Program-made: the position numbers and the translations under genes
NCBI RefSeq assembly: GCF_003853705.1
Contig: NZ_QTQI01000001.1
Coordinates: 558,001 to 622,000 of the forward strand
DNA: 64,000 bases
Reading direction: 5' to 3'
From: Burkholderia sp. Bp8992
GTDB lineage: Bacteria; Pseudomonadota; Gammaproteobacteria; Burkholderiales; Burkholderiaceae
Part shown: one piece after another, positions 36,747 through 63,022 of the stretch
Layout: every line of letters begins with the position of its first letter
Position numbering within the stretch: position 1 is the first letter of the stretch
Notes under the pieces: model-generated
Seen by the model: only the letters and a program-made list of their open reading frames with translations
Told to the model about the DNA's origin: nothing
The model's database searches: none

Positions 36747-37886
36747 ATGAAGTTTTCCCTCATCTACGAAGCCCAGACCACCGACGCATCGCGCGAGGGC
36801 GACCACCGGGTGTTCAAGGAGACGGTCGAGCAGGCGCTGCTCGCCGAGCAGGTCGGTTTCGACACGATCTGGTGCGTGGAGCACACGTCGCTGACCCACT
36901 ATGCGCACATGAGCGCGCCGGAGACCTTCCTTGCGTACCTGGCCGGCCGCACGACGCGCATCGGCCTCGGCCACGGCGTCGTGTGCCTGCCGCCGGCGAT
37001 GAACCACCCGATCAAGGTGGCGGAACGCGTCGCGCTGCTCGACATCCTGTCGGGCGGTCGCGTGCATTTCGGCGTCGGCAAGGGCGGCAGCCAGCAGGAA
37101 GCCGGCGCGTTCGGCTACGACCTCAACGAACTGCAGCCGATGATCGACGAATCGATGTACCTCGTGCCGAAGATGTTCGTGCAGGACGAGATCGAGCACG
37201 ACGGCAAGTACATCAAGATCCCGAAGCGCCCGATCCACCCGAAGCCGTTCCAGGATCCGCACCCGCCGATGTACCTCGCGTGTACGAACACCGATGCGCT
37301 GCTGCGCGCCGGCCAGCGCGGGATGGGCGCGCTGGTGCTCGGCTTCGGCGGCCCGGACGAGGTCGCGAAGAAGAATGCCGTGTACCGAGAGGCATGGGCG
37401 AACCGCAAGCCGGAAGACCAGGTCGGCTTCCGCCCGACCCGGCACCTCGCGGCGCTGTGCCCGACGGTCGTGATGGCCGACGGCCAGGCCGCCCGCAAGA
37501 TCGGCATCCGCGGCCAGCGCTACTTCATGGAATCGCTCGCGTACTGGTACACGGGCGGCGAGCGTCCGGACCCGGCGAAGTGGGACGACGATCTCGTGCA
37601 GGCCGACACCGGCGAGATGGTGATCCGCTCGCGCTTCGCGTCGGAGGAAGTCGTCGTCAACTTCGCCGACCCCGCGCTCGCGATGATGAACCCGAACCAC
37701 GCGTACGGCACGGTGGACGACTGCATCGGCTATGTCGGCCGCCTGCAGGAAGCCGGTGTCGACGAAGTGCTGTTCCTGTGCCAGATGGGCACGGTGCCGC
37801 ACGAAGCGCAGATGGAGACGATCCGCAACATCGGCGAGCACGTGATCCCGTTCTTCAACCGCGAGAAGGAACGCGCCTGCGCGTGA
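36747..37886 (+). CDS. LLM-class flavin-dependent monooxygenase, first gene of steroid block A
   Basis: A 379-residue bacterial luciferase-like (F420/FMN) oxidoreductase. Typical features are Glu-x-Val-Gly-Phe-Asp-Thr-Ile-Trp-Cys-Val-Glu-His near residue 36-48, Thr-Arg-Ile-Gly-Leu-Gly-His-Gly-Val, and Ala-Glu-Arg-Val-Ala-Leu-Leu-Asp-Ile-Leu-Ser-Gly-Gly-Arg. It should need reduced flavin from a reductase; the HsaB-like reductase 4 kb downstream is a possible donor. GGAGA before the ATG at 36747 fixes the start. It leads the rightward run into hsaA, 168 bases on. No known steroid step clearly needs this class, so its substrate is open. Confidence 0.82.
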   Translation: MKFSLIYEAQTTDASREGDHRVFKETVEQALLAEQVGFDTIWCVEHTSLTHYAHMSAPETFLAYLAGRTTRIGLGHGVVCLPPAMNHPIKVAERVALLDILSGGRVHFGVGKGGSQQEAGAFGYDLNELQPMIDESMYLVPKMFVQDEIEHDGKYIKIPKRPIHPKPFQDPHPPMYLACTNTDALLRAGQRGMGALVLGFGGPDEVAKKNAVYREAWANRKPEDQVGFRPTRHLAALCPTVVMADGQAARKIGIRGQRYFMESLAYWYTGGERPDPAKWDDDLVQADTGEMVIRSRFASEEVVVNFADPALAMMNPNHAYGTVDDCIGYVGRLQEAGVDEVLFLCQMGTVPHEAQMETIRNIGEHVIPFFNREKERACA

Positions 37887-38054
37887 TGCACGGGGCCGCG
37901 CCCGTCGTCCCGTCCGGTCGGACGATGCGGCGCGGTCGCGCGAAGCCGACCATCGGTGGTGGCGAGCATCGCCCGCGGCCAGGCCGCGCCGAACAACTTT
38001 GAACGAGAGCGGGGCGCGCACCACGGCGCAGCCCCCGTTCCACAGGAGACATTC

Positions 38055-39248
38055 GTGCATCGCGACAACGATTCGAACGCATTGGCCGCCACGCTGGTCG
38101 CCCGGGCCGAGGCACTGGCGCCGGTGCTGGCCGGCCGCGCCGCGCAGGCGGACGCGCAGGGCCGGATCCCGGCCGAGACGATCGCCGACATGCAGGCCGC
38201 CGGCTTCTTCAAGGTGCTGCAGCCGAAGCGCTACGGCGGCTACGAGCTCGATCCGCAGGCCTTCTTCGACATCCAGATGGCACTCGCGCGCGGCTGCATG
38301 TCGACCGCGTGGGTGTACGGCGTCGTCGGCGTGCACAACTGGCAGCTCGCGCTGTTCGACGAACGCGCGCAGCAGGATGTCTGGGGCAACGACCCGGCCA
38401 CGCTGATCGCGTCGACCTACATGCCGGTCGGCCGCGTGACGCCGGTCGACGGCGGCTTCCGCCTGTCGGGCCACTGGAAGTTCTCGAGCGGCAGCGAACT
38501 GTGCGAATGGGTGTTCCTCGGCGCGCTGGTGCCGCCGGCCGAGGCCGGCCAGCCGCCCGAATACCGGACCTTCCTGCTGCCGAAAACCGACTACCGGATC
38601 CAGCAGGACTGGGACGTGCTCGGCCTGCGCGCGACGGGCAGCCACGACATCGTCGTCGACGACGTGTTCGTGCCCGCGTACCGCACGCACAAGGCGATCG
38701 ACGGGATGATGGGCACGAGCCCCGGTCTCGCCGTCAACGCTGCACCGCTGTTCAAGCTGCCGTTCGCGCAGATCTTCGTGCGCGCGGTGTGCACGTCGTG
38801 CATCGGCGCGCTGCAGGGTGCGCTCGACGATTTCACCGGCTATGCGGCGACGCGCGTGTCGGCGAACAGCGGCGCGAAGACGACCGACGATCCGGGCGCG
38901 CAGAGCGCGTGCGCGAACGCGGCCGTCGCGATCGACGAGATGAAGGTGCTGCTCCAGCGCAATTTCGCGGAACTGATGGCGTCGGTGACGGGCGGCCCGG
39001 CCGTGTCGATCGAGCGCCGCGTGCATTTCCGCTACCAGTCGGCGCAGGTCGCCGAGCGCTGCGCGCAGGCCGCGAACACGCTGCTGCGCTACGCGGGCGG
39101 CAACGGCATCTATCACCGCAATCCGCTGGTGCGCCGTTTCCTCGACCTGCATGCGGCCCGCGCGCACTACGCGAACAACGTCGACCGCTTCGGCCAGAAC
39201 CTCGGCGCGGTGATGCTCGGTCGCGACAACACGGACTTCTTCATCTGA
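38055..39248 (+). CDS. hsaA: 3-HSA hydroxylase oxygenase component (HsaA-like)
   Basis: A 397-residue acyl-CoA-dehydrogenase-fold flavin monooxygenase. It resembles M. tuberculosis HsaA: Gly-Phe-Phe-x-x-Leu-Gln-Pro-x-x-Tyr-Gly-Gly, Val-Val-Gly-Val-His-Asn-Trp-x-Leu-Ala-Leu-Phe-Asp, Val-Trp-Gly-x-Asp-Pro-x-Thr, and Val-x-Gly-Leu-Arg-x-Thr-Gly-Ser. HsaA hydroxylates the phenolic secosteroid 3-HSA at C4 with reduced flavin from HsaB, preparing it for meta cleavage by HsaC. The GTG at 38055 has AGGAG six bases upstream. hsaB lies two genes downstream, in line with a two-component system. Confidence 0.82.
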   Translation: MHRDNDSNALAATLVARAEALAPVLAGRAAQADAQGRIPAETIADMQAAGFFKVLQPKRYGGYELDPQAFFDIQMALARGCMSTAWVYGVVGVHNWQLALFDERAQQDVWGNDPATLIASTYMPVGRVTPVDGGFRLSGHWKFSSGSELCEWVFLGALVPPAEAGQPPEYRTFLLPKTDYRIQQDWDVLGLRATGSHDIVVDDVFVPAYRTHKAIDGMMGTSPGLAVNAAPLFKLPFAQIFVRAVCTSCIGALQGALDDFTGYAATRVSANSGAKTTDDPGAQSACANAAVAIDEMKVLLQRNFAELMASVTGGPAVSIERRVHFRYQSAQVAERCAQAANTLLRYAGGNGIYHRNPLVRRFLDLHAARAHYANNVDRFGQNLGAVMLGRDNTDFFI

Positions 39249-61804: not shown

Positions 61805-61816
61805 AGAGTCAGAGAC

Positions 61817-63022
61817 ATGGAAGACGCAGTCATCGTTTCCGTCGCACGCACGCCGATCGGCAAGGCGTTTCGCGGCATGTTCAACGATACCGAGGCGCCG
61901 GCGCTGGGCGGCCACGTCGTGCGCGCGGCGCTCGAACGCGCGGGCGTCGCGCCGGCCGACGTCGACGACGTGCTGATCGGCTGCGCCGCGCAGCAGGGCA
62001 CGCAAGGCTACAACCTCGGCCGCCTGTCGGCCGCGGCGGCCGGGCTGCCGGCGTCGGTTCCCGGCATGGCGATCGACCGCATGTGCTCGTCGGGCCTGAT
62101 GTCGATCGCGAACGCCGCGCGCAGCATCGGTGCGGGTGACGCTCGGATCGTCGTCGCGGGCGGCGTCGAGTCGATCTCGCTCACGCAGAACAAGCACAAG
62201 AACGCATATCGCGCGCGCTCGCAGGCCGTGCTCGACCACCAGCCGGCCGCGTATATCGCGATGATGGAAACGGCCGAGATCGTGTCGCGCCGCTACGGGA
62301 TCCCGCGCGCCGAGCAGGACGCCTTCGCGCTGCAGAGCCACCGTCGTACGGCCGACGCCCAGGCGGCCGGACGCTTCGACGCGGAAATCGCGCCGCTCGA
62401 CGTGCGCCGCGCGCTGTTCGACCAGGAAGGCAACGCGACCGGCCACGAGGATCTGCGCGCAGCGCGCGACGAAGGCGTGCGCGCCGACACGACGGCCGAG
62501 CGGCTCGCGGGGCTGAAGCCGTCGTGGAGCGGCGGCAAGGTCGTCGAGCAGGGCGAGTTCGTGACGGCCGGCAATGCGTCGCAGCTGTCGGACGGCGCGG
62601 CGGCCGTGGTGGTGATGTCGCGCAGCGAGGCGGTGCGCCGCGGGCTGACGCCGCTCGGCGCATTCCGCGGCCTCGCGGTGGCCGGCTGCGAGCCGGACGA
62701 GATGGGCATCGGCCCGGTGTTCGCGATTCCGAAGCTGCTGCAACGCTTCGGGATGACGGTGGCCGACGTCGGGTTGTGGGAGCTGAACGAGGCGTTCGCG
62801 TGCCAGGCGCTGTACTGCCGCGACACGCTCGGCATTCCCGACGACCGGCTGAACGTGGACGGCGGCGCGATCGCGCTCGGCCACCCGTTCGGGATGTCGG
62901 GCACGCGCATGACGATGCACGCGCTGCTCGAAGGCGCGCGGCGCGGCGTGCGGCACGCGGTGGTGACGATGTGCATCGGCGGCGGGATGGGTGCCGCCGC
63001 GCTGTTCGAAGTCGGCGCGTAG
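61817..63022 (+). CDS. Acetyl-CoA acetyltransferase-type thiolase
   Basis: A 401-residue thiolase with nucleophile Cys90 (Ile-Asp-Arg-Met-Cys-Ser-Ser-Gly), [13 protein letters not shown] and a final Met-Cys-Ile-Gly-Gly-Gly-Met-Gly. It is distinct from the FadA6-like gene at 56030. It ends the beta-oxidation genes of block B, 12 bases after the MaoC gene. It could finish side-chain or ring-derived chain shortening (FadA5-like step) or handle adipyl-type products; I cannot choose from sequence. Confidence 0.84.

Follow-up and report, generated by a model that had tools for sequence, protein, structure and literature searches.

Several described systems stand close to the locus analysed here (statements on the cited papers refer to portions of each). 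For Comamonas testosteroni TA441, a figure legend lists the steroid genes in order (PMC13101464, 2026). Burkholderia is one of the genera to which 53 predicted proteobacterial steroid degraders belong (PMC4810484, 2016), and TesB of B. cenocepacia J2315 has been listed (PMC5062160). In Caenibius tardaugens, a luciferase-like monooxygenase (LLM) converts progesterone to testosterone acetate; this enzyme is reported to be 88% identical to its homologue on plasmid pNL2 of Novosphingobium aromaticivorans, which the same paper labels both Saro_3594 and Saro_3595 (PMC12239570, 2025). The present analysis concerns 64,000 nucleotides of Burkholderia sp. Bp8992 (contig NZ_QTQI01000001.1, positions 558,001 to 622,000; hereafter the window), which carry a steroid-degradation cluster led by an LLM gene. 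The cluster is of a known kind, and an earlier sequence-only reading, which knew the pathway from actinobacteria and Comamonas, has to be widened by its prediction in Burkholderia (PMC4810484, PMC5062160). What is new is the LLM prediction and the place of this gene in the core run. The combined interpretation that is modestly favoured here is one Comamonas-type steroid cluster with a predicted LLM entry for progesterone-type steroids. In the library searched, no paper was found that joins progesterone degradation with Burkholderia, and the genus is mentioned 0 times in the consulted portions of PMC12239570.

Gene calling by codon usage placed 21 steroid-pathway-type genes, all on the + strand, at 36732-63022; the pathway genes are intact open frames with coding codon usage. 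Block A (36732-44225) has six genes: those for the LLM, HsaA and KstD, then a flavin reductase gene at the hsaB place, a ferredoxin-type reductase gene at the kshB place and a FadD3-type ligase gene. The 15 genes of block B (48298-63022) encode HsaC, IpdA, IpdB, IpdC, two enoyl-CoA hydratases, four acyl-CoA dehydrogenases (two pairs), two thiolases, two short-chain dehydrogenases/reductases (SDRs) and a MaoC hydratase. Intergenic spacing within both blocks is -4 to +69 bp (called starts). All gene types named by the sequence-only reading (hsaA, kstD, hsaB, kshB, fadD3; hsaC, ipdABC, echA20, fadE30, fadA6) are present as intact + strand frames. Its start coordinate, 36747, lies inside the LLM gene, which had been left unnamed, and the cluster continues past its end coordinate, 63022. 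The called start of the LLM gene is 36732 and a second ATG at 36747 is the likelier start; the start of HsaA is uncertain, with homology only from about residue 47 onward. The features of the cluster, in window coordinates and with the basis of each name, are:

36732-37886, +, LLM, a type II Baeyer-Villiger enzyme predicted to act on progesterone-type steroids (65.4% identical to its relative on N. aromaticivorans pNL2; luciferase fold; ipdA association)
37956-39248, +, HsaA/TesA2-type oxygenase, 3-hydroxy-9,10-secosteroid (3-HSA) hydroxylase (NCBIfam; closest structure 2rfq)
39259-41019, +, KstD, 3-ketosteroid delta-1-dehydrogenase (NCBIfam; closest structure 7p18)
41016-41534, +, short-chain flavin reductase in the HsaB role, candidate supplier of reduced flavin mononucleotide (FMNH2) to HsaA and possibly LLM (NCBIfam best RutF; place in operon)
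41550-42599, +, ferredoxin-type reductase in the KshB role (NCBIfam best PaaE, under cut-off)
42639-44225, +, FadD3/ScdA-type acyl-CoA ligase (NCBIfam 829 bits, cut-off 657)
44226-48297, no strand, variable stretch separating the two blocks, with a CarO-like outer-membrane gene (44990-45649, +), an acyltransferase-3 gene (45662-46888, -) and a PIN-domain gene (47603-48019, +)
48298-49194, +, HsaC/TesB extradiol dioxygenase (NCBIfam; closest structure 2zi8)
49204-50097, +, IpdA/ScdL1 (closest structure 6co6 chain A)
50108-50905, +, IpdB/ScdL2 (closest structure 6con chain B)
50914-51834, +, ScdN-type enoyl-CoA hydratase (NCBIfam 468 bits, cut-off 280; gene order)
51831-52931, +, IpdC/ScdK-type flavin oxidoreductase (NCBIfam; generic FabK-type structure match; gene order)
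52928-53767, +, EchA20/ScdY-type enoyl-CoA hydratase (NCBIfam 386 bits, cut-off 260; generic EchA8 structure match; gene order)
53764-54933, +, ScdM1-type acyl-CoA dehydrogenase (NCBIfam; structure search; gene order)
54963-56033, +, ScdM2-type acyl-CoA dehydrogenase (NCBIfam; gene order)
56030-57181, +, FadA6/ScdF-type thiolase (NCBIfam 706 bits, cut-off 591)
57215-58093, +, ScdE-type SDR dehydrogenase (NCBIfam 479.5 bits, cut-off 373)
58097-59329, +, ScdC-type acyl-CoA dehydrogenase, IpdE2-like (NCBIfam best IpdE2, 174 bits, cut-off 450)
59326-60522, +, ScdC-type acyl-CoA dehydrogenase, IpdE1/FadE30-like (best structure 6wy9)
60519-61319, +, IpdF/ScdG-type SDR (NCBIfam 454 bits, cut-off 336)
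61316-61804, +, ScdD-type MaoC hydratase (Pfam)
61817-63022, +, thiolase in the ScdJ position (NCBIfam; gene order)
63200-64000, +, BNR/Ycf48-like gene, truncated at the window end (next in the nearest genome come an MMPL transporter and kshA)

Structure comparisons place several of these enzymes in steroid metabolism. HsaA is closest to 2rfq ('3-HSA hydroxylase', E 1.7e-81) and KstD to 7p18 ('3-oxosteroid 1-dehydrogenase', E 1.8e-198, residues 8-564). The closest structures of IpdA and IpdB are 6co6 chain A (E 1.1e-72) and 6con chain B (E 2e-51), both labelled CoA-transferase subunits in the database and taken here to be IpdA and IpdB; that of HsaC is 2zi8 (E 7.6e-73), labelled a biphenyl-diol dioxygenase and presumably HsaC, and the best NCBIfam model for this protein is also HsaC. 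FadD3, the FadA6-type thiolase, the two enoyl-CoA hydratases and the two SDRs of block B scored above their NCBIfam cut-offs; among the passed models only that of FadD3 bears a steroid-gene name, and the others are equated here, by assumption, with FadA6, EchA20 and IpdF. Other scores weigh against the steroid assignment: HsaA (394/450), HsaC (309/450) and KstD (593/788) missed their cut-offs (bits/cut-off), as did the HsaB-position protein (67/230, best RutF) and the KshB-like reductase (best PaaE, 245/421). Furthermore, IpdC and EchA20 have generic best structures (FabK-type and EchA8, respectively) and their putative names therefore rest on NCBIfam and gene order.

The IpdA/IpdB pair together with a FadD3-type ligase, by which the aerobic 9,10-seco pathway of proteobacterial type is recognised, lies in the window. 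For the aromatised A ring, HsaA and HsaC are in the window and HsaD occurs in relatives only, at 195 bits against an NCBIfam cut-off of 400. KshA is likewise found in relatives, outside the window (KshA_C in 35/35 ipdA carriers of the genus sample described below, and about 3 kb beyond the equivalent window end in the nearest genome). Structure matches, NCBIfam, gene order and the linkage to kshA and hsaD in relatives support the steroid pathway proposed earlier, and on these grounds its assignment as a 9,10-seco pathway is held with very high confidence; androgen degradation, as predicted from the gene set, is near certain.

Gene order points the same way. ScdL1L2, ScdM1M2 and ScdJ are presumed, from position, to correspond to the window genes listed under those names, and 6wy9 is taken to be IpdE1. 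Block B follows the order of the TA441 gene list, and the enzyme types stated there for ScdN, K, Y, F, E, C1C2, G and D fit the window genes by place (PMC13101464). From this order, 58097-59329 and 59326-60522 would form the ScdC pair and the pair at 53764 and 54963 would be ScdM1M2, in agreement with the IpdE2 (NCBIfam) and 6wy9 matches. The IpdE1/FadE30-type protein is thus more likely encoded at 59326-60522 than at 53764-54933. A tRNA-Asp called by ARAGORN at 59191-59287 sits inside an acyl-CoA dehydrogenase gene and is probably false; an Rfam scan over 30000-64000 gave zero matches.

The region is best described as a single Comamonas-type cluster, broken by a 4-kb stretch without counterpart in close relatives. 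The distance between fadD3 and hsaC was measurable in 35 of the 53 loci tried. Of 13 Paraburkholderia-type loci (L020-L026, L028-L033), 12 have 127-187 bp there and the remaining one 3,689 bp; the range is 1,576-7,164 bp for 17 Burkholderia loci and 757-7,236 bp for five from other genera, against 4,072 bp in the window. LLM and ipdA share one contig and one strand in 35 Burkholderia genomes, 9.9-68 kb apart (12.5 kb in the window). Two separate blocks are ruled out by the short junction of the Paraburkholderia-type loci. The 'two blocks' of the sequence-only reading become one cluster with a variable stretch inside. The simplest reading, in which we infer the direction of change, is that the junction gains DNA in Burkholderia. 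The junction (44226-48297) appears insertion-prone.

The scan for relatives kept the best 80 of 213. In the nearest genome of the comparison, a draft (G001), blocks A and B align at 95-96%, and the cluster extends at least 28 kb past the equivalent of the window end, up to the contig edge. This extension carries an MMPL transporter, kshA, regulators and a second kshA accompanied by ligase and Oxidored_FMN genes. Further on it holds hsaF- and hsaG-type genes, an FAA-hydrolase gene in the place of hsaE, DUF1329, DUF1302, SDRs and an HsaD-like hydrolase. Steps that are not in the window (KshA, HsaD, HsaEFG) therefore lie nearby in that relative. An end of the cluster at 63022 is ruled out by this continuation and by the same-strand gene at 63200. 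Grouped with the second kshA of the relative (C53:11150-16504; L096, L099) are genes for an AMP ligase, an Oxidored_FMN protein, a SnoaL-like protein and an SDR; the group may serve another steroid substrate.

The distribution of LLM was compared with that of ipdA in three nested samples, at E cut-offs chosen by the author: 65 Burkholderia species genomes (ipdA 1e-80, LLM 1e-100, LuxR 1e-30, KshA_C 1e-40, HsaD 1e-70), 160 genomes of the family (ipdA 1e-70) and 398 of the phylum (ipdA 1e-50), with LLM at 1e-100 in both of the latter. In the genus, ipdA occurs in 35/65 genomes and LLM in 37/65, including 35/35 ipdA carriers; KshA_C and an HsaD relative each occur in 36/65, and both are in every ipdA carrier. 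The family sample has ipdA in 17/160 and LLM in 14/160, all 14 within those 17, and the phylum sample has ipdA in 8/398 and LLM in 4/398, all four within those eight. Two of the phylum LLM carriers are Burkholderia; in the other two, 24.6 and 19.2 kb of a single contig separate LLM from ipdA. The association was weighed by its spread across families, since the chance figures calculated for it take no account of relatedness. In the family and phylum samples, LLM implies ipdA and ipdA does not imply LLM.

The window LLM is 65.4% identical to the pNL2 protein (plasmid-collection search). Its best relatives outside Burkholderiaceae in that collection are 18 Novosphingobium/Sphingobium records at 62-69%, with the other nine records at 28-35%; surroundings were inspected for eight of the 30 plasmid records with a match, one of them without annotation there. 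The genes after LLM on pNL2 encode a helix-turn-helix regulator, a steroid delta-isomerase, an adenylate-forming enzyme, an SDR and a Rieske protein. A regulator gene also precedes LLM in two Sphingobium relatives, and a steroid delta-isomerase is annotated in two of these three stretches. A tree built from 16 of the 120 listed protein matches and 15 other rows (the L017 row being a 127-residue fragment) separates 28 family rows from three outgroups with support 96/98; the alignment (A1) joined the window protein with 29 of the 120 listed matches. A fold search assigns LLM a luciferase fold. Progesterone is the predicted LLM substrate with somewhat better than even probability.

Several observations pull against a progesterone role. 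Two genomes (G026, G028) have an LLM sequence without an ipdA match. The first also has KshA_C and HsaD and is a draft of about 480 contigs, and is for these reasons probably a carrier; the second has, on C7, an LLM fragment only and a LuxR relative in two pieces. These pieces, like a LuxR fragment with stops in G039 (C6), look like decay remnants of the cluster. Conversely, 3/17 ipdA carriers in the family sample and 4/8 in the phylum sample are without LLM at threshold, which makes LLM accessory. C. testosteroni TA441, for which the consulted part of PMC12239570 reports no LLM homologue, still grows on progesterone, so LLM is not the sole route. The relative in Novosphingobium sp. EMRT-2 (68.7%) has no adjoining LuxR-type gene; its neighbours are an SDR and a thiolase. 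The tree joins the window LLM to 23 other rows and sets it off from the pNL2/Sphingobium rows (support 94/85 and 82/44, neither starred), so its substrate may differ; it is placed beside that group, not inside it, in a split where the characterised enzyme is represented by the pNL2 protein, for which 88% identity is reported. At E 1e-20 or better, 3,378 proteins match LLM, and the 120 matches listed are 72-99% identical and from diverse taxa. The fold match is unspecific, with 7bip, 2i7g and luciferase outscoring the Baeyer-Villiger monooxygenase. No steroid-acting enzyme is prominent among the fold matches shown, a neutral result from a search that cannot separate Baeyer-Villiger enzymes from luciferases. 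Finally, no ester hydrolase was identified.

An alternative that is less probable and still substantial is an ordinary androgen cluster, in which LLM acts elsewhere than on the C20 ketone (on another C17-substituted or ring-modified steroid) or is an accessory monooxygenase with a different product. The divergence from the pNL2 protein, the position outside the pNL2/Sphingobium rows, the many substrates and widely shared fold of LLM enzymes and the different setting of the EMRT-2 relative all suit it. Against it stand the LLM-ipdA association in all three samples and the pNL2 and two inspected Sphingobium relatives, which lie beside LuxR-type or helix-turn-helix regulators, with a steroid delta-isomerase gene in two of the three.

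The analysis shows the genes, how they are ordered and linked and where they co-occur; the likely steps are deduced from the enzyme families. Under the favoured progesterone entry, LLM would insert oxygen into the C17-C20 bond of progesterone (or of 1,2-dehydroprogesterone) and so form a 17-acetate ester, using reduced FMN that probably comes from the flavin reductase whose gene is the third one after that for LLM. A putative esterase and a 17-hydroxysteroid dehydrogenase would then lead to androstenedione (AD) or androstadienedione (ADD). KstD and KshA/KshB (kshA being outside the window in relatives) would desaturate and hydroxylate these so that ring B opens; the aromatised A ring would be hydroxylated by HsaA/HsaB and cleaved by HsaC, and HsaD would release HIP (a hexahydroindanedione propionate). 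FadD3/ScdA would activate HIP, and ScdC, ScdD, ScdE, ScdF, ScdG, IpdC, EchA20 and IpdAB would dismantle rings C/D. Given its position three genes after LLM, HsaB may serve both LLM and HsaA. The fuller proposal, that in Burkholderia and its relatives the core steroid operon includes the progesterone entry step and that HsaB alone feeds reduced flavin to both enzymes, is tentative and falls somewhat short of an even chance.

Androgens, and likely pregnanes, fit best as substrates. The sequence-only reading had offered 'sterols, bile acids or androgens', and the androgens stand. That the pathway also takes bile acids or sterols is unlikely: the second kshA of the nearest genome and the AMP ligase, Oxidored_FMN and SDR genes near it speak for it, but the Burkholderia of PMC4810484 are without most cholate side-chain genes and, in the consulted portions, none of its tested Proteobacteria metabolised cholesterol. 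Degradation of a non-steroid terpenoid or other polycyclic by a merely similar pathway has very little probability, for the sub-threshold NCBIfam scores and the generic HsaB and KshB families are outweighed by the steroid enzymes closest in structure to KstD, HsaA, HsaC, IpdA and IpdB, by KshA_C and an HsaD relative in every ipdA carrier among the 65 Burkholderia genomes and by the growth on testosterone (PMC4810484) of Cupriavidus necator, a species with loci of this type.

To the left of the cluster lie two further genes of possible relevance:

31851-32606, -, SDR dehydrogenase beside the regulator, putatively a hydroxysteroid dehydrogenase (NCBIfam SDR; 91% counterpart beside the cluster in the nearest genome)
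32717-33892, -, LuxR-family regulator of 391 aa, candidate TesR-type activator of the cluster (GerE domain)

TesR is a LuxR-type regulator (PMC12239570). LuxR relatives of 88-98% lie within 12 kb of LLM in 20/65 Burkholderia genomes, and relatives occur in 39/65 genomes, namely the 35 ipdA carriers and G026, G028, G039 and G058. Paralogue groups of about 57% and 46% are found elsewhere in the genome (G001 C58:67237-68376 and C78:27045-28166), almost only in steroid-cluster genomes, which suggests a wider regulon; the neighbourhoods of these two distant paralogues in G001, compared with its cluster proteins, showed no clear steroid operon. The 126-aa gene at 34117-34497 was considered as a ketosteroid isomerase and ruled out, its Pfam family being DUF4377. 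Left of the SDR and regulator, a tyrosine-recombinase-type gene (30559-31752) has a counterpart in G001 that adjoins about 11.4 kb of other DNA, and the left edge here may be an insertion site.

If the progesterone entry is real, one gene would predict which of many steroid-degrading Proteobacteria can use progesterone as well, this hormone being a common pollutant. The operon would also supply a candidate for the flavin reductase left unassigned by the 2025 progesterone work, whose consulted portions report no such gene close to LLM in N. aromaticivorans or N. arvoryzae (PMC12239570). Should HsaB indeed be shared, the reductase partner of the LLM class would be identified and about half of the sampled Burkholderia species would be progesterone degraders. 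Androgen-pathway marker genes are present in about half of the 65 sampled species, with decay-like fragments in two more.

Among the known systems, the Mycobacterium and Rhodococcus hsa and ipd clusters, which serve sterols too, share homologous HsaA, HsaC, IpdA and IpdB with solved structures. The pathway proteins of actinobacteria and proteobacteria nevertheless form separate clades (PMC4810484). The predicted testosterone-type pathway of Burkholderia, Cupriavidus and Ralstonia is alike in pathway and taxa, and Cupriavidus necator grew on the hormone, whereas LLM or a progesterone entry step is not discussed in the portions consulted (PMC4810484). The tes/scd mega-cluster of TA441 resembles the window in its enzyme set and block-B order and in that scdA stays with the A/B-ring genes; however, the two blocks lie at the two ends of 120 kb there and are neighbours here (PMC13101464), and the consulted part of PMC12239570 gives TA441 no homologue of the leading LLM. 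The pdc cluster of Caenibius tardaugens and its N. aromaticivorans pNL2 counterpart likewise have a LuxR-type regulator close to an LLM of this family (PMC12239570), whereas the window LLM, at 65% identity to the pNL2 protein, heads an hsaA-kstD-hsaB-kshB-fadD3 run that includes a flavin reductase.

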